This document shows, one piece after another, positions 36,315 through 49,297 of a stretch of 64,000 nt of DNA; within the stretch, counting starts at the first letter, position 1, and each line of letters opens with the position of its first letter. Under the pieces are notes generated by a model. It was not told the DNA's origin. It worked only from the letters and a program-made list of their open reading frames with translations, and ran no database searches. Origin of the DNA: Candidatus Bipolaricaulota bacterium. GTDB taxonomy: Bacteria > Bipolaricaulota > Bipolaricaulia > RBG-16-55-9 > DRXL01. The DNA is taken from positions 1 to 64,000 of the forward strand of contig CALLJK010000009.1 in NCBI GenBank assembly GCA_938091745.1, read 5' to 3'. The translations under genes were made by a program, and so were the position numbers.

Positions 36315-36749
36315 ATGAAAAATTTTCTGGTCGTGTTGGCTGCTCTCGTCTTGTTAGCAGGGCCATGCCGAGCGCAGCCGTTAGGAGTTGGTGTCAAGGT
36401 CCCGTTACAAGCGTTTGTCTTTGTGGGGCTTACGGAGCACTTCGCTATAGAAGTGGGATTGCCCATCGGGCTGAGCATAGGAGGATTAGCTGCTGTCGCG
36501 GACGTGAAGCTCTTCTTTGGCACCTATGAGATTATCAATCTCGTATGGAAGCCGTTTGTGGGTGCGGGAGCGTCCGCTGGGGTGCGCTCTCAAGGAGAGT
36601 TGCTCATTATCGAAGCGACATTCCAAGGGATCGTGGGGGTAGAGGTTCCTGTGCCGCGGACAAGTCTCTTCGCGTTTGCTGAAGTCTGGTTGTTAGCGGG
36701 GCGGCCCTTGCCTGGGGTCTTCGTCCTTGGGGTCCGCTATGAGTTCTAA
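36315..36749 (+). CDS. Exported small barrel-like protein B
   Basis: A 144-residue paralogue of the preceding protein: signal peptide (1-20, ending CRAQ), then PLGVGVKVPLQAFVFVG, FAIEVGLPIGLSIGG and a terminal strand ending GVRYEF with a C-terminal phenylalanine, the usual last residue of outer-membrane barrels recognised by the Bam machinery. It starts 9 nt after its paralogue, suggesting tandem duplication. Its 3' end overlaps arsC by 57 nt on the opposite strand. Confidence 0.6.
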   Translation: MKNFLVVLAALVLLAGPCRAQPLGVGVKVPLQAFVFVGLTEHFAIEVGLPIGLSIGGLAAVADVKLFFGTYEIINLVWKPFVGAGASAGVRSQGELLIIEATFQGIVGVEVPVPRTSLFAFAEVWLLAGRPLPGVFVLGVRYEF

Positions 36750-37142
36750 GAGTGCGAGCACCTTCTGTTCGATCATATCGCGGACTTTTCTGTAAAACTC
36801 TAAGCCGCGCCCGATAGGGTCAGGAATTCCCCAGTTCTCGCTCACTCCGCGAAAGCCCGCAGGGCAGATATCTGAGTCGAGACACCCCATGGCGATCACA
36901 TAGTCGTAGTTCTTGAGCTCCTCGGGGTCAAAGCCCTTGGAGTACTGTTGAGAGATATCAATGCCTTTCTCACGCATAACGGTGATGGCGTCAGCGTGCA
37001 CGGAGCCTGCTGGTTGCGTCCCCGCACTGCGAATCTCGAGATCGAGCCCCATCTGTTGGGCGTAGTGACGGGCGAAGCCTTCGGCCATCTGGCTGCGGCA
37101 CGAGTTGCCTACGCAGATAAAGATTATCTTCTTGCGGCTCAT
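36693..37142 (-). CDS. ArsC-type arsenate reductase (LMW phosphatase fold)
   Basis: A 149-residue protein with the P-loop CVGNSCRSQMAEGFAR (CX5R), a second cysteine region MGCLDSDICPAG and the aspartate of WGIPDPIG. The extra cysteines favour thioredoxin-coupled arsenate reductase over a plain tyrosine phosphatase. It is translationally coupled to the upstream nuclease gene (4-nt overlap) and is the last gene of the phosphate operon. That makes sense because arsenate enters through phosphate uptake systems. Confidence 0.85.
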   Translation of the reverse strand: MSRKKIIFICVGNSCRSQMAEGFARHYAQQMGLDLEIRSAGTQPAGSVHADAITVMREKGIDISQQYSKGFDPEELKNYDYVIAMGCLDSDICPAGFRGVSENWGIPDPIGRGLEFYRKVRDMIEQKVLALLELIADPKDEDPRQGPPR

Positions 37143-37951
37143 GTTCTGTGGAGACCTCCAAGCTCTCGGCGTGCATAGCGTAGATGCTCTTTCAGGATAA
37201 AGAGTCTGTTCTCGGGCGCAACTAAATAATAATCATAGGGGGCATAGAGCTGGCCGTTAGTGATGTCTACGCAGTACTTATCAGGCCCGGAGCGCTTCCC
37301 CAGGAGCGTGTCTACGCAGAAGCGATATTCATAGCCCAGTAGGAGCGCTTCGTCTTTCCAGAAGCCCTTTTTTTGGTGTCGGGCTTGGCGCACCGCGTCT
37401 TGCACGCGCTCCCAGTCTTCGGGCTTGGGAAGATTGGGATATATAATATAATTGACGGCCCAACCCTCTTGTAATAATAAGAGATTGAATGTCAAGCGCT
37501 TCTGGGGGTTCTTCTCTTCTGGGGCGACGTAGGCGAGCAATCGCCGATACTGATCAAAGAGCTGGGTGCCCACAGTGAGATAGAGATTTTTATAGCGTAT
37601 TTGGCCGCCAGCGCGATAGCGCAATCTCTGCGCAGCGAGCTCTTCAAACGCTTTGCGCGCACGTTCCCCCCAATAAAACTGGCGCGTCCCAGGGCGATCG
37701 GTGAGTTTGGGGGCAAGATATTCTCGGAACTGTTTTGTCTTGAAAGCGCCTTGATGGGTCTTAAGGAGGTTCTCGAGCTTCCTGTCGAAGGCGCTGGGCT
37801 TTCGCGTGCCGGGGTAGTGAGTCTCTGGAGCGTCGATACCTACCAATCGAATGGTGATCTGGACGCTTGGGGTATCGCCGTCGGGGGCGCCTAGCCAATG
37901 GGCAAAGCCCACGTGCTCACGCCGGGAATCATAGTGCAGCGCGATGGTCAT
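37139..37951 (-). CDS. Staphylococcal-nuclease-like protein in the pst operon
   Basis: A 270-residue protein with an SNase core: ITIRLVGIDAPETHYPGT (metal aspartate and arginine region), ARKAFEELAAQRL, RRLLAYVAPE and LLLLQEGWAVNYI. The N-terminal 25 residues and the long C-terminal tail (about 185-270) are extra. I see no signal peptide, so it may be cytoplasmic, or exported by another route. It overlaps both phoU and arsC by 4 nt. Known SNases cut DNA and RNA. Placement in a phosphate operon suggests phosphate recovery from nucleic acid, which is inference. Confidence 0.8.
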   Translation of the reverse strand: MTIALHYDSRREHVGFAHWLGAPDGDTPSVQITIRLVGIDAPETHYPGTRKPSAFDRKLENLLKTHQGAFKTKQFREYLAPKLTDRPGTRQFYWGERARKAFEELAAQRLRYRAGGQIRYKNLYLTVGTQLFDQYRRLLAYVAPEEKNPQKRLTFNLLLLQEGWAVNYIIYPNLPKPEDWERVQDAVRQARHQKKGFWKDEALLLGYEYRFCVDTLLGKRSGPDKYCVDITNGQLYAPYDYYLVAPENRLFILKEHLRYARRELGGLHRT

Positions 37952-38658
37952 GGTGCTCCTGCCTCATCGGGGAGGCCGCGCTTCTTGCGCTCCTTCCGCC
38001 CCGTGACCATATAGATGGTGCGCTCAGAGATATTCACGGCGTGATCGCCCACGCGCTCTAAGTCCCGAATCGACCACAAGACAGGGATGACATCGTCGAC
38101 GAATTCTTTCGCTTCGTGTGGGGAATGAGCTTCGCGCGCTAGCTCCAAGAGCTTCGCCAAGACTTTGCGCCGGAGCTGCCAGCAGCGTCCGTCGAGCTCT
38201 TCGTCTCTTTGAATGATCTCTTGAGCACACTCGATATCTCGAGTGACGAACGCGTCTACGGCGTCGCGGAGCATCTCTCGAGCGAACTCTCCTAGTGCTG
38301 TCAGCTCTTCTTTCGGCAAGAGCACAAAGACCCCGACGTCCATGCCGTACTGCCCAACGTTGACGGCCAAGTCGGCGGCGCGCTCTAAGTCGGTGATAAT
38401 CTTAAAGACGCTCGTGATGAGCCGTAAATCGATAGCGACGGGCTGCTGGAGAGCTAACAGATCGAGACATTCTTTTTCGATAGCGATGTTGAGTTCGTCG
38501 ACTTGATCGTCCCATGTATCGAGGCTTTCGGCTAAGGTGCGATCATGCTCGCGCAAGGCTTTCAGCCCAAGATCGATCCCCTCGATGACTTTGGCCCCCA
38601 TCTCGCGCACCGATTGGGTAAGACGCTCTAACTGTTGCTTATAGCTTTCGCGTACCAT
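37948..38658 (-). CDS. phoU: Phosphate signalling protein PhoU
   Basis: A 236-residue helical protein with two PhoU repeats: DTWDDQVDELNIAIEKECLDLLALQQPVA in part, DLRLITSVFKIITDLERAAD for the first metal site, and SIRDLERVGDHAVNISERT for the second. It damps Pst uptake and any linked sensor kinase. I chose the ATG at 38658; no strong ribosome site is visible. It begins 14 nt after pstB, and its stop overlaps the nuclease start. Confidence 0.92.
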   Translation of the reverse strand: MVRESYKQQLERLTQSVREMGAKVIEGIDLGLKALREHDRTLAESLDTWDDQVDELNIAIEKECLDLLALQQPVAIDLRLITSVFKIITDLERAADLAVNVGQYGMDVGVFVLLPKEELTALGEFAREMLRDAVDAFVTRDIECAQEIIQRDEELDGRCWQLRRKVLAKLLELAREAHSPHEAKEFVDDVIPVLWSIRDLERVGDHAVNISERTIYMVTGRKERKKRGLPDEAGAP

Positions 38659-38672
38659 AATCAAGAGCTATT

Positions 38673-39494
38673 TTACCCAAATTTGCCCGTAATGTAATCT
38701 TCGGTCTCTTTCTTGTCGGGGTTCTCAAAGATTTTCTTCGTCGGCCCGTACTCGATCAAGCGTCCCAGATAGAGAAACGCTGTGAAATCCGAGACGCGAG
38801 CAGCCTGCTGCATATTGTGCGTGACGATCACCACTGTGTAGTCTCTTTTCAGCTCGAGCATCAAATCTTCGATCCTGGCTGTCGCAATGGGATCGAGAGC
38901 CGAGCACGGCTCGTCCATCAAGATCACTTCGGGTTCGATAGCTAATGTGCGCGCGATGCAGAGTCGCTGCTGTTGTCCCCCCGAAAGATCATACCCGCTC
39001 TTTTTATGCAGATAGTCTTTGACTTCGTCCCACAGGGCCGCTTGGCGCAGGGCGCGCTCCACCAGCTCATCCAAGTTCCCTGTAAAGCCGTTGATGCGCA
39101 GCCCGAACGCCACGTTCTCGTAGATAGATTTGGGGAAGGGATTGGGCTTTTGGAAGACCATCCCGATTCTCCTACGGACTTCGACGGGGTCGACGTCGGG
39201 ATCATAAATATTCTTGCCGTGATAGAGGATCTCCCCGCTGATGCGCACGCCAGGGACGAGATCGTTCATGCGATTGAAGCAGCGAATGAGCGTGCTCTTG
39301 CCGCAGCCTGACGGCCCGATGATCGCTGTGATTCTATTCTTGGGGATGTCAATGCTGATCGAGTCCAGCGCTTGCTGTTTGCCGTACCAGAGGCTGAGCT
39401 GGCGTGTCTGCAAGATGGGTTCCCCTAAGGGGGCGAAGTCATCCTGCGGGAGGCGGACCGCAGGGCGAGATTGTATGACAGTTGTGGTCTTCAT
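38673..39494 (-). CDS. pstB: Phosphate ABC transporter ATPase PstB
   Basis: A 273-residue ATPase with Walker [31 protein letters not shown], signature [15 protein letters not shown], Walker [14 protein letters not shown] and the H-loop VTHNMQQA, ending with the PstB-specific [12 protein letters not shown]. An N-terminal 30-residue extension precedes the domain. AGGAGGTGG lies before the ATG at 39494, 5 nt after pstA. Confidence 0.97.
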
Positions 39495-39499
39495 AGAGT

Positions 39500-40915
39500 C
39501 TACCACCTCCTCTGGAATTTGATGCGCAAGAAGATCGCCAAGGCGTTCATGGCTAAGAGAATCGTCAGGAGCACCAAGATTGCCGCGGCAGCAATGCTGG
39601 CAAAGCCATCTTTTGCTTCGCCGATCCACGTAAAAATCTGAATGGGAACGACGGTGAAGTAGCTGCGTAAGTTGGGCAGAAATGTTAGATACTGAAAGGC
39701 TCCCAGGAGAATAAGCAGGGCGGCCTCGCCCATCGCCCGTGAGAGCGCGATGATCAAGCCCGTCAAGATCCCTGGCAGGGCGTAGGGCAGCACATGGGAG
39801 CGTACCACTTGCCAGTGCGTCGCGCCCACGGCGTACGCCGCATGGCGAATCGAATCAGGGATCGTGCGCAAGGCTTCGCGCGACGCGATGATCACCATAG
39901 GGAGTATGAGAAGCGTCATAGTGAGGGCTCCGGTGAAGAGCACGCGGTCCATCTTGAGCGCCCGCGCTAGGATCTCTAGCCCAATGATCCCATAGATCAC
40001 CGAGGGGACGCCGGCAAGATTCGCAATCAATAACTGAATCAGCTCGGTGAGCCAATTCTTGCGGGCGTACTCTTCTAAGTATAACGCTGCGCCAACCCCT
40101 AGGGGCAGAGCGAAGAGCGCCGTCAGCCCAACTAAATAGAACGACCCCACGATAGCACTGGCCAGCCCCGCTTTCTCGGGGGAGTTGGAGTCATAACTCG
40201 TGAGAAAGTCCCAGATAGCTTGTCCCCAGCTGCGCGTGATGGGGATCTGCGCTGTCTGCTCAGCTTCGAGCGGAAGAGTCAAGAGTTCCCCGTCGCGCTC
40301 AATGTGAACAGAGAACGGGCCTGGCTGGGCTCTTCTCTGGGCGGCGACGATGAGCGCTTCCCAGGCTTGGCGTGCCCCCGTGACGGGAATATCTTCGATT
40401 CGTACTATAATATCGCCGACGCGCAGCCCAGCTTGAAAACCAAGACTCTCTTCAGGCAGATAGTCTATGACGACGCGCAGCGCGCCCGTCTGCGGATCCA
40501 TCTGGGGGAGCAGTTCTCCGAAGATCTTCACAGGGTCGCCGTTGATCCAACTGATGGGGAGCGTATCGTTGGGCAGGCGTGCGATGGCGTCCCACACATG
40601 CGCTGAGCGAAAGACAACTTCTGAGCCGATGCGAATAACTGCGTCGAACTCAGCGATCCCCGCGCGGGCCGCGGCGCTGTCGGGGATAAAATCCGTGATG
40701 ATGACATAGGGCAAGTTCTGCGCATCCCATTGGATGACCATAGTGGAGAGCACCAAGCCTGCGCGAGAAGCCGCGCGCATGGCCATCAGTGGGCGCGCAT
40801 TGATAAGAATATAGACGATCAAGGCGACTAAGAGAGCGAAGCTGATGAGGATCGTGCTGAGGGTCAGCGTGCCAAAAAGCGTGCTCTTTGTCTTACGCCA
40901 AGCGAGTGCGCTCAT
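39500..40915 (-). CDS. pstA: Phosphate permease PstA with two inserted PDZ domains
   Basis: This 471-residue PstA exceeds the usual 280-300. TM1 is about residues 17-38. Then come two PDZ-like domains, about 65-125 ([17 protein letters not shown]...DAVIRIG) and about 146-218 ([17 protein letters not shown]...GDIIVRIED), before the normal permease resumes ([20 protein letters not shown] and EEYARKNW, coupling loop [20 protein letters not shown]). The insertion lies in the first extracytoplasmic loop, so the PDZ pair faces PstS or the periplasm. Start overlaps the pstC stop (ATGA). The frame is continuous with no sign of a joint. I know of no described PstA of this form. Confidence 0.9.
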
Positions 40916-41847
40916 TCGTATCGCTCCCGAAAGCGGCGCACGATCCAATAGCTCAGAATATTTAAGGACAGCGTGATCACGAAGAGCAGCGCGCCGATGG
41001 CGAAGATCGTCGCCCAGATGAATGCGCCGGCTTCAGCGTCCCCTGTGGCGACGTTGACGATGTGCACCGTCAGGGTTTCCAAGGGCTTGAGCAGATCTGG
41101 GGGCCAGCTTGGCACACGTCCAGCGGCAATAGCGACGATCATCGTCTCGCCGATAGCACGCGACATCGCCAATATGAACGACGCGGCGATCCCTGACAGG
41201 GCCGCGGGCAGCACGACATGGCGGATCGTCTCGAACTTCGTCGCCCCAAGAGCATAGGCGCCCTCGCGCAGCTCGCGCGGCACCGCGTAAATAATATCTT
41301 CGCTGAGCGACGAGACCAACGGGATGATCGCTATTCCCAAGACGATCCCCGCGCTGAGCGCGTTCCAAAACTGAATATCTGGGAGCACCGTGCGCAAGAG
41401 CGGCGTCACGAAGAGCAACGCGAAATAGCCATAGACGACCGTAGGGATGCCTGCTAAGATCTCTAAGATGGGTTTGGCTATTTTGCGCACGCGCCCGGAT
41501 GCAAATTCGCTCAGATAGATCGCGCTGAGCAGCCCGATGGGCAGAGCTACTAATAAAGCAATCCCCGTGATGATGAGCGTGCCCATGATTAAGGGCAAAG
41601 CGCCGTAGGATGGGGTGGAGACGTCTGTGGGGGCCCAGCGTATGCCCCCTAAGAATTCCCTAAGAGAGACCTTGCTGAAGAAGACCCCTGAACCGGAGAT
41701 AAAGAGCCAGATAGTAGCTGCGGTGACGACCACAGCGAGAAAAGCGCAGACGAAGAGCACACCCTGAATGAGCCGTTCCTTGAGATACCGCCCTGGAGGG
41801 GCATGCAGGGCAGGCTGGAGTGCCGTCTGCTTCATGGTTCTTTTCAT
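40912..41847 (-). CDS. pstC: Phosphate permease PstC
   Basis: A 311-residue permease with normal PstC length: TM1 LIQGVLFVCAFLAVVVTAAT, the periplasmic loop FLGGIRWAPTDVSTPSYGALP, the cytoplasmic coupling loop ALGATKFETIRHVVLPAALSGI, and the last helix LNILSYWIVRRF. It pairs with PstA. An in-frame ATG at 41835 is an alternative start. A promoter just upstream allows expression apart from pstS. Confidence 0.95.
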   Translation of the reverse strand: MKRTMKQTALQPALHAPPGRYLKERLIQGVLFVCAFLAVVVTAATIWLFISGSGVFFSKVSLREFLGGIRWAPTDVSTPSYGALPLIMGTLIITGIALLVALPIGLLSAIYLSEFASGRVRKIAKPILEILAGIPTVVYGYFALLFVTPLLRTVLPDIQFWNALSAGIVLGIAIIPLVSSLSEDIIYAVPRELREGAYALGATKFETIRHVVLPAALSGIAASFILAMSRAIGETMIVAIAAGRVPSWPPDLLKPLETLTVHIVNVATGDAEAGAFIWATIFAIGALLFVITLSLNILSYWIVRRFRERYE

Positions 41848-41969: not shown

Positions 41970-43118
41970 TCACTTGCAGTGCTCTTTATATTTATTACGG
42001 ATCTCCGTGAGCGACAGGCCGCTGTAGTTGCCGCCAAAGGCCGTGCCGGTGATGCGCTTCGCCCAGCAGGTGCGGGCTTCATCGCGCACCTCGCGCGGCG
42101 CGGGGAGATACCCAGCTTTATTGAGCATAAATTGCTGATTACCAAGGCGCTCTTCAGCGAGATAGAACTTGATGAACTCGTCCACAGCGGGGCGCTCGCC
42201 GCTCTTCTTATTCACATAGATGAAGAGCGGTCGGCTCAACGGCTGATACGTGAATCCCAAGATCGTATCGACGGTGGGCAGGATGCCCTTGCACTCCCCG
42301 CCCTTGTTTTCTAAGGGCTTTTTGCCGTTCTTGGCCCGGCGCGCGTTGATCTCTTTCAGCACGTCTGCAGGGGTGCTGATCAGCTCGCGGCGCGGGTCGA
42401 TCGCCACGGCCTGCACAAGCTGAGTATTGTGCACGAAGAAGTTATACCCAAAGTATGTGAGGGCGAAGGAGTTCGCGCCGGTCTGTTGAGCCAAAAGCTG
42501 GTCTTCTTCAGTACCGAAGTAGTCTTGTCGGGTGTCGCCCTCTTTGCCGGTAATAGCTGAGGTGAAGAAGTCGAACGTCCCAGACGTTTCAGCTGCGCCG
42601 GAGAGCGTGATCTCAGCGTTGGCGAGCGTGCTGCGCACTTGGTTCCATTTGGTGATGAATTTTTCGGCTTCTCTAGCCCACAGCAGCTCCAGCTCGCCCA
42701 CGGTCAAGCACACGGGAGCATTCCCAAAGATTTGGGTCTTGGTGCTGACGGCGACGGTCAGGCCGTCAAGGGCGACCAAGAGTTCAATATATTCGACGCC
42801 GTGCTTCGGCGCGGTCTCGATTTCGGATTGCTTAATAGCTCGAGAGGCATTGCTGATGTCGGTCTCACCGGTGACGAAGCGCCGAAAGCCCCCCGACGTG
42901 CCGCTGACAGCCACGGTGACGTTGATGTCCGGGCGGACCTTCTTAAACTCTTCGGCCATCGCCTTGGTGATAGGGGCGACGGTGCTGGAGCCATCCGAGA
43001 GAATATTCTTTGAGTCCTTCGGAGCCCCCGGCTGCCCCACCGCCGACAAGACGACCGACCCGACGACAACCAAAACGACCAACGCTGCGCGCCTTAGAAG
43101 AGACGCGTTGAGTTTCAT
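41970..43118 (-). CDS. pstS: Phosphate-binding protein PstS
   Basis: A 382-residue exported binding protein: signal peptide (about 1-28), then SDGSSTVAPITKAMAEEF and SGTSGGFRRFVTGETDISNASR, the phosphate-coordinating loops, and SAITGKEGDTRQDYF. No lipobox cysteine is near the signal, so it looks soluble rather than lipid-anchored. AGGAGGAC precedes the start. First gene of the Pst operon, with an unusual palindrome where the -35 should be. Confidence 0.95.
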   Translation of the reverse strand: MKLNASLLRRAALVVLVVVGSVVLSAVGQPGAPKDSKNILSDGSSTVAPITKAMAEEFKKVRPDINVTVAVSGTSGGFRRFVTGETDISNASRAIKQSEIETAPKHGVEYIELLVALDGLTVAVSTKTQIFGNAPVCLTVGELELLWAREAEKFITKWNQVRSTLANAEITLSGAAETSGTFDFFTSAITGKEGDTRQDYFGTEEDQLLAQQTGANSFALTYFGYNFFVHNTQLVQAVAIDPRRELISTPADVLKEINARRAKNGKKPLENKGGECKGILPTVDTILGFTYQPLSRPLFIYVNKKSGERPAVDEFIKFYLAEERLGNQQFMLNKAGYLPAPREVRDEARTCWAKRITGTAFGGNYSGLSLTEIRNKYKEHCK

Positions 43119-47234: not shown

Positions 47235-48281
47235 ATGACGCGGACGCGACTCATGCACGTGCTTTTGGGGGTCATCTTAGCGCTCGGTATTCTTCTGGTG
47301 CCTGCCAAGGCGACAATCACTGTCCGCTTTAGCGATATCTCGCTGCGCCCAGAAGAGAAAATCGACTACGATTTCACACCCACCACCACAGGCGAGATCG
47401 TCTTCAAATTAGCCCTGCGCCCGACGACTGCTGCTCTGCGGGTTCAGCTCTTCCTTGAGAAGACTCTTATAGTAGATCAGTCGGGGCCAGTGACGCAAAC
47501 GGCCAAGGCAGAGGTCTCCGAAGAGCAAGTCGGTCGCCCCTGGCGTTTGGTCGTGACCAATCTCAGCTCTCAAACAGTCGAGGGGCGCCTCGAGCTCACC
47601 TATCCTCGACGCTTCTGCAAAGAGATTTCTGCGCAATATCGCATCAAGGTGAGCTATGAAGTGGGCACAGAGCTGGAAGATCTGCATTGTCAGCAGCTTT
47701 ATGGGGTCTTGCGCTCGCTGCCCGCGGAGCATCTCAAGCGCCTGCGGGAGATTCGCGCCCGCGAACCTGATTTTCTCTATGGGCAGTACTTCCCGCCCAG
47801 CTTGATAGAGCTTCCTGGGCTGCGCGCCAGCCGCACGTTCACGCTCGTCGTGTATCATGAGCTTGGGCACTTGGTGCATTTTACGCGCTCGACAGCTGAT
47901 CAAGAAGCTCGTTGGGAGAAGCTCTTCAGCGAGTCTGGTCGTGATCCCGATAACTTCGTGCGTGATCCCATCGACCGCTCGCTCTACGCTATGACCAATC
48001 AGTATGAAGACTTCGCCGTGACGTTCTCAGCGTATATCGCCGACAGCCAGCTTTTTATGAACGATGCGCTCACGCGCAGCCAGCGCAGCAAGCCCCTGCT
48101 CTTGCAGAAGTTCAAAGTGATTCTAGAGTACTTCCGGCATCAGGTGGACGGCCAAACGAAAGTCTATATTTATCGTGTTGGGACGGAAGTGCCCATCCCT
48201 ACGGTCTATCGTGCTTCTGTACCGTTGACCCCAGACGATTTACCAGACTTCACTGGGCCCATCGCGTGGGAGCCTTTTTAG
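47235..48281 (+). CDS. Secreted HExxH zinc-metalloprotease-like protein
   Basis: A 348-residue protein with a signal peptide (about 1-27), a beta-rich domain (about 30-125) and a helical catalytic part with VVYHELGHLVHF (HExxH). A downstream glutamate in NQYEDFAVTFSAYIAD, about 50 residues later, could be the third zinc ligand, as in gluzincins such as the anthrax lethal-factor-like clan. I recognise no named family. GAAGGGA supports the ATG at 47235. The 3' end overlaps the PhoU-like gene by 4 nt on the opposite strand. Confidence 0.7.
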   Translation: MTRTRLMHVLLGVILALGILLVPAKATITVRFSDISLRPEEKIDYDFTPTTTGEIVFKLALRPTTAALRVQLFLEKTLIVDQSGPVTQTAKAEVSEEQVGRPWRLVVTNLSSQTVEGRLELTYPRRFCKEISAQYRIKVSYEVGTELEDLHCQQLYGVLRSLPAEHLKRLREIRAREPDFLYGQYFPPSLIELPGLRASRTFTLVVYHELGHLVHFTRSTADQEARWEKLFSESGRDPDNFVRDPIDRSLYAMTNQYEDFAVTFSAYIADSQLFMNDALTRSQRSKPLLLQKFKVILEYFRHQVDGQTKVYIYRVGTEVPIPTVYRASVPLTPDDLPDFTGPIAWEPF

Positions 48282-49267
48282 GGCATAGGGGCAGCCGTAT
48301 TGAGCGCGGTCTCAGCGATATTGACCGAATAGTCTTTAACGCGCCCGATGCTGTCGAAGGCAATCCCGATGAGCTGAGCTTCTTGAGGAGCAAGGTCCCA
48401 CAAGAGCTTGATGGCCTTCATGAGGCGCTCTTCGACCCCTGAGGCCTTGTCGATTACTTGGCTGGCGAGGTCGGGATCGGGCGAGCGGAACGCATCCACA
48501 GACTCTTTCAGTAAGTTCGCCACGTGCTCCCCGCCCTTGTGCAGGGCATCGGCGACCTTGGGTGGGGCAGGAACTTTGATCACCGTCGTCACACGAGCGA
48601 TCTTGACCGCATGATCGGCGATACGCTCTAGCTGCCGCGCCACCGTGTGGGTATCGAAGAGCTTGACGCGACTGATGCCCAGCGCTTCTTCGGCGAGCAG
48701 ATCACGCAACGCGATGCGGAACTGTCTGTAGAGCATCAAATAGAGACGGTCGACGTCCTCGTCGCGTGCGGCAATATCGTGTGCGAGCTCAGCGTCGTAG
48801 TCAGTGAGCGCGCGGACAGCATCGGTGAACATGTCGTGCACCATTAAGAAGATGCGTTCGAGCGTCTTTGGCGCGGAGAGCTCGGAAAGATTGAGCAGAT
48901 TATGAATGACGATAGAGTCTCGTGATTCTTCCATGATCTCCGGGCCGATGAGGGCTTGGGTGATCTTGCGGATTGTCTGGCGCTGTTCGGGGGTGATGCG
49001 CTCCCCGCGGACTTCGATGATGTCAAATCCTGCGACGTACATGGAGATGAACGCCCGCATAAGGGTGTCGCCGGTTTTAGCATTGAGCTGGAGGACGCCG
49101 CGGGTCAGTTGGGAATCGCGGTGCGGTCGCAAAATCAGCAAATCAGGGCTGTGGGGGTGGAGTTCGATTTCTGCGCCGGCATGGAGCTTTTGCGCTTCAG
49201 CCCAGTCTTTCGGCAGGGTGACCATGAACGTCGCCCCGCCAGTGATCTGCACTCTCCGGGTCTCCAT
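48278..49267 (-). CDS. Archaeal-type AbrB-PhoU phosphate regulator
   Basis: A 329-residue protein with an N-terminal AbrB-like DNA-binding hairpin (TRRVQITGGATFMVTLPKDWA, about 1-45), then two PhoU helical bundles, with HTVARQLERIADHAVKIARVT as one metal motif and GRVKDYSVNIAETAL as the other. The layout resembles PhoU proteins annotated mostly in archaea, which may combine DNA binding with the PhoU fold. It is separate from the pst operon, 5 kb away, which has its own phoU. It has a near-consensus promoter, and AGGAGGG precedes the start. Confidence 0.82.
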   Translation of the reverse strand: METRRVQITGGATFMVTLPKDWAEAQKLHAGAEIELHPHSPDLLILRPHRDSQLTRGVLQLNAKTGDTLMRAFISMYVAGFDIIEVRGERITPEQRQTIRKITQALIGPEIMEESRDSIVIHNLLNLSELSAPKTLERIFLMVHDMFTDAVRALTDYDAELAHDIAARDEDVDRLYLMLYRQFRIALRDLLAEEALGISRVKLFDTHTVARQLERIADHAVKIARVTTVIKVPAPPKVADALHKGGEHVANLLKESVDAFRSPDPDLASQVIDKASGVEERLMKAIKLLWDLAPQEAQLIGIAFDSIGRVKDYSVNIAETALNTAAPMP

Positions 49268-49297
49268 AGTCCCTCCTGTCTATCGCAATTGGTTCGA

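Follow-up and report, generated by a model that had tools for sequence, protein, structure and literature searches.

The pst locus in the window (the whole stretch of 64,000 nucleotides analysed) raises the question of why the permease subunit of a phosphate importer should carry two PDZ domains between its first two transmembrane helices, how it acquired them and what they might do there. The genes concerned form an intact operon, pstS-pstC-pstA-pstB-phoU, with the same gene order in relatives, and the relevant features are the following.

41970..43118, minus strand: pstS, phosphate-binding protein, 382 aa
42285..42392, minus strand: extra stretch of ~32 residues in PstS, accompanying the main PDZ-PstA clade
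40912..41847, minus strand: pstC, the ordinary 311-aa permease partner
39500..40915, minus strand: pstA, PDZ-containing phosphate ABC permease, 471 aa; its ATG start overlaps the pstC stop
40796..40867, minus strand: TM1 of PstA, residues ~17-40 (hydropathy peak at residues 20-38; helix 2-38 in the model)
40538..40783, minus strand: PDZ1 of PstA, residues ~45-126, with an invariant or near-invariant A52-G53 at the presumed carboxylate-binding-loop position
40232..40537, minus strand: PDZ2 of PstA, residues ~127-228, with conserved G133-x-L135 and the helix TG-x-RQAWEA (179-187)
39503..40231, minus strand: permease core of PstA, TM2-TM6 with an EAA-type loop, residues 229-471 (matching TIGR00974, BPD_transp_1 and E. 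coli PstA)
38673..39494, minus strand: pstB ATPase, with its start assigned to the ATG at 39494
37948..38658, minus strand: phoU

The pstA frame opens with the ATG at 40915 and continues unbroken until it reaches the TAG at 39500-39502; its start shares the tetranucleotide ATGA with the stop of pstC. The 471-aa product scores 226.6 bits against the NCBIfam model for PstA (TIGR00974, cut-off 193.45), and the EAA-type cytoplasmic loop is present, with A359, A360, G364, L376 and P377 invariant in the family alignment. No second PstA was found in the source genome (1.74 Mb, 32 contigs), so the PDZ-containing protein is, by elimination, the working subunit, and it can be regarded as the PstA of a PstSCAB importer for which phosphate transport is predicted. 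Two further observations concern the surroundings of the operon. A second PhoU-domain protein with an N-terminal MazE/AbrB-type DNA-binding domain (PF04014 plus PhoU) is encoded well upstream (48281-49279, minus strand), and similar PhoU-like frames adjoin the pst operons of several relatives. Next to phoU (36693-37951, minus strand) lie genes for an SNase-domain protein and for a protein resembling low-molecular-weight phosphatases and arsenate reductases (PF01451).

The identity of the inserted region is supported by several kinds of evidence. In the Pfam search, PDZ_6 (32.6 bits against a cut-off of 27, the best stretch being PDZ2) and BPD_transp_1 (residues 270-456) both exceed their cut-offs in this one protein, accompanied by weaker PDZ_2 and PDZ matches. 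PDZ1 of this single sequence stays under the Pfam cut-off (PF00595, E 7e-4); a profile of the PDZ1 family nevertheless matches that of PDZ2 with 98% probability (E 1.6e-13). PDZ models matched all 11 family members scanned, and BPD_transp_1 all 10 complete ones. An AlphaFold2 prediction for residues ~40-238, made from an alignment of ten relatives only, gives two PDZ folds with a mean pLDDT of 92.6 and values above 90 over most residues, and a Foldseek search of the PDB with this tandem retrieved DegQ, DegP, RseP and the PDZ tandem of Aquifex RseP, all at probability 1.00. In the full-length model the PDZ portion is predicted with confidence and stretches of the permease core are weak (mean pLDDT 72.5); the model's top PDB matches are E. 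coli PstA chains, followed by DegQ. The preliminary description of this DNA, which had proposed a continuous frame leading from TM1 through two PDZ-like domains into a normal PstA permease, and had regarded it as the likely working PstA of an intact pst gene order, is thus borne out, and the PDZ fold, whose absence from residues 65-218 would by its own account have refuted it, is predicted. It was right about the number of PDZ domains; their limits, which it had set at residues 65-125 and 146-218, proved slightly too narrow.

Since the N-terminus of PstA is basic (RKTK) and a single hydrophobic helix precedes the tandem, the positive-inside rule and homology with E. coli PstA point to an N-in topology that would place both PDZ domains in the periplasm, between TM1 and TM2. 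Among the best-conserved positions of the insert, kept in nearly all members, are A52-G53, G133-x-L135 and the PDZ2 helix G180-x-RQAWE. The first two we take to lie in the carboxylate-binding loops, judging from an alignment with HtrA PDZ sequences. The deepest-branching member, locus L036 (G013:C30), deviates at several of the conserved positions, for example with T-Q in place of A52-G53, and its PDZ1 is without the usual loop residues.

How widespread is this architecture? Named loci assign the source organism to Candidatus Bipolaricaulota (Acetothermia), a little-known bacterial phylum. PDZ-PstA was found in 22 of the 100 Bipolaricaulota genomes searched (E 5e-50 or better), in every case as the PstA of the pst operon, and in one further genome the gene is truncated where the contig stops. 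Within the phylum the matches ranking next, at 1e-10, are ordinary PDZ proteins, and at least 22 other Bipolaricaulota genomes have a PstA without the insert. The genomes with PDZ-PstA lack a second PstA except for G016, which contains a distant second pst pair; there, L131 (G016:C125) is a PstS/PstC/PstA/PstB-like operon of the ordinary short kind. Outside Bipolaricaulota, some 775 genomes were covered (289 drawn from many phyla, plus those of the phyla to which G240, G175 and G159 belong) and yielded nothing comparable, a result that holds for this sample and does not prove absence. Most of the matches outside the phylum, at E ~1e-11 to 1e-12, are proteases of the HExxH (RseP-type) or HtrA kind; two lack both protease signatures, and none has a PstA match. 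Nor did plasmid records contain PDZ-PstA, with no record covering 80% of the query. The literature covered, to which subscription papers and preprints did not belong, yielded nothing relevant on PstA with PDZ domains or on PDZ domains in importer permeases. The statement of the preliminary description that it knew of no described PstA with this architecture agrees with these searches, in which the form also proved not to be common: a PDZ tandem in the first loop of PstA appears to be undescribed, an enlarged first loop of PstA as such being already known.

Two maximum-likelihood trees inferred from the permease part alone unite the 14 PDZ forms included in a single clade (support 100/98 and 99/97), which is nested among ordinary PstAs of other phyla and apart from most of the short PstAs of Bipolaricaulota. 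In the second tree this clade has the ordinary PstA of G175 and G317 as its closest sister, with modest support (89/80). Because the PDZ forms make one clade within ordinary PstAs, the simplest reading is one insertion of the tandem into a PstA of a widespread type, which would have taken place in the ancestor of a Bipolaricaulota pst lineage. Comparing the window with its genus mates, we obtained dN/dS values of 0.10-0.18 for the PDZ domains and 0.05-0.09 for the permease; for pairs within Bipolaricaulaceae the corresponding values are 0.13-0.33 and 0.04-0.08. The values within the genus argue that the insert is maintained, and it is under purifying selection that is weaker than that acting on the permease.

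A trace of the role of the tandem may be sought in PstS. At one site the PstS proteins of the main PDZ clade have ~38 residues (15 of 15 examined) where ordinary PstS has 6-11 and at most 16, and this insert of ~32 residues is found in none of the 22 aligned non-PDZ relatives of the same PstS type. The same site comprises 15 residues in G013 and two in G023, which has an ordinary PstA. The PstS of G013 being without the insert, the PDZ domains arose without it. The insert is linked to PDZ-PstA, yet it represents one evolutionary event on one branch, later than the gain of the PDZ domains. Note also that PstS of the window's lineage has cysteines in the insert and the C-terminal tail (ECKG, RTCW, EHCK), which might possibly form a disulfide clamp; members from Bipolaricaulaceae are without them (HAG).

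The C-terminal tail of PstS was considered separately as a PDZ-specific ligand. It is missing from the PstS of those Bipolaricaulota that have a short PstA; PstS proteins from other phyla whose PstA is ordinary nonetheless have a tail with the same TG-x-x-F motif, and in the sister group, likewise with ordinary PstA, PstS bears a similar Cys-ending tail. The tail therefore did not evolve to serve the PDZ domains, and we dropped this candidate. The tails end in different residues (K, L, F, Q, S), unlike a classical PDZ ligand.

Taken together, the PDZ domains probably assist the importer in retaining PstS or some other protein of the periplasm, and the evidence leans weakly towards a docking role at PstS. 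We tentatively favour, with a probability of roughly 0.45, the reading that the tandem is an accessory periplasmic docking surface for PstS, working by analogy like the P2 loop of MalF for MalE. The first periplasmic loop of PstA would have gained the tandem module once, in the ancestor of the Bipolaricaulota pst lineage; the module would hang on the periplasmic face beside the docking site of PstS and bind this protein through its surface or tail, which would increase the local concentration of PstS or stabilise the PstS-PstCA complex, with phosphate transport itself left unchanged. Docking of PstS is supported by the position in a periplasmic loop, the PDZ fold, the conserved groove positions and the purifying selection, by the insert in PstS of the main PDZ clade (15/15 versus 0/22) and by the precedent of MalF P2. 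It is weakened by the fact that the PstS insert is a single event absent from G013, and by the occurrence of the tail in PstS proteins whose partner is an ordinary PstA.

PDZ domains usually bind C-terminal tails. The PDZ pair may accordingly serve a different partner, binding the C-terminus of some other periplasmic or membrane protein and so anchoring the importer or coupling another system to it; candidates would be a protease, an envelope or S-layer protein, or a signalling protein of the Pho response. This is a possibility that we rate as less probable than docking of PstS. The usual ligands of PDZ domains, the retention of the carboxylate-loop glycines in both domains and the nearest folds, which belong to envelope proteases, all speak for it, but the operons of relatives contain no extra conserved gene, and no candidate partner was found. 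A more specific proposal, which seems rather doubtful, is that the pair forms a peptide-tail receptor for the C-terminus of PstS or another periplasmic protein, its occupancy controlling docking, transport or Pho signalling; if true, this would make an ABC importer gated via recognition of a tail by PDZ domains.

About equally doubtful is that the insert has no peptide ligand at all and acts as a structural spacer or gate, the PDZ folds being rigid filler that shapes the periplasmic vestibule. Other PstAs do carry unrelated sequence at this position (DUF3333 forms, 390-450 aa long, and the insert of G159), and evolution is faster in the PDZ domains than in the permease; conservation of both groove-loop glycines and of the RQAWE helix of PDZ2 in nearly all members, however, speaks against mere spacing. 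We consider it very unlikely that the tandem is a sensor of stress or misfolding that gates phosphate uptake or Pho signalling: its resemblance in fold to the PDZ domains of DegP, DegS and RseP is all that speaks for sensing, and no protease or regulator is fused to it or encoded next to it. Finally, a gene fusion created by misassembly or annotation, conceivable in that the genomes are mostly metagenome assemblies, can be dismissed almost entirely, as the form occurs in 22 genomes from separate projects, among them the single-contig genome G020 (99% completeness), with the joint always the same and with purifying selection on the insert.

Bacterial PDZ domains are known mostly from envelope proteases, and here a tandem of them forms part of the pore subunit of a central nutrient importer, where it has persisted across an entire lineage. 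Should it dock PstS, it would constitute a second, independent case, beside MalF P2, in which to ask how an insert in a permease tunes the affinity for the binding protein. With PDZ, DUF3333 and a third type of insert, the first periplasmic loop of PstA is moreover a site of repeated domain insertion.

Comparison with known systems puts these proposals in context. E. coli PstA (PstSCAB, PDB 9k3s/9k3x/9k3y) shares the permease core (aligned over 255-473, E 1e-27), the fold and the operon partners, but it is 296 aa long, lacks a PDZ domain and has a first periplasmic loop that is short. DegQ/DegP and RseP share the fold, its occurrence in tandem and the periplasmic location (Foldseek probability 1.00); they are proteases, whereas PDZ-PstA has no protease domain, and the overall rmsd of ~14-20 angstrom over the tandem implies that the two PDZ domains are placed differently to each other than in these proteins. 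The fold of MalF P2 differs from PDZ. The P2 loop likewise forms a large folded insert on the periplasmic side of an importer permease (MalFGK2), and it is known to contact the binding protein, according to papers cited in PMC8134467 and PMC3328499, a contact that is only putative for PDZ-PstA. P2 is located in the second periplasmic loop and the PDZ tandem in the first; the likeness is an analogy of working only. The DUF3333-type PstA (PF11812; rings in Caulobacter vibrioides) is also enlarged by an insert between TM1 and TM2, to 390-450 aa, but this insert is shorter and gives no PDZ match; DUF3333 adjoins BPD_transp_1 and is prevalent in Alphaproteobacteria (PMC3597751). Identity with DUF3333 was rejected, PF11812 having no match in the window's PstA or its genome; the divergent PstA of G013 matches this model in the TM1 part only, below the cut-off. 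In yet another phylum, the PstA at L181 (G159:C128:11029-11826) has a different TM1-TM2 insert of more than 100 residues that bears no Pfam name, and judged by its sequence it adds a third type of insert to PDZ and DUF3333 at this position of PstA.
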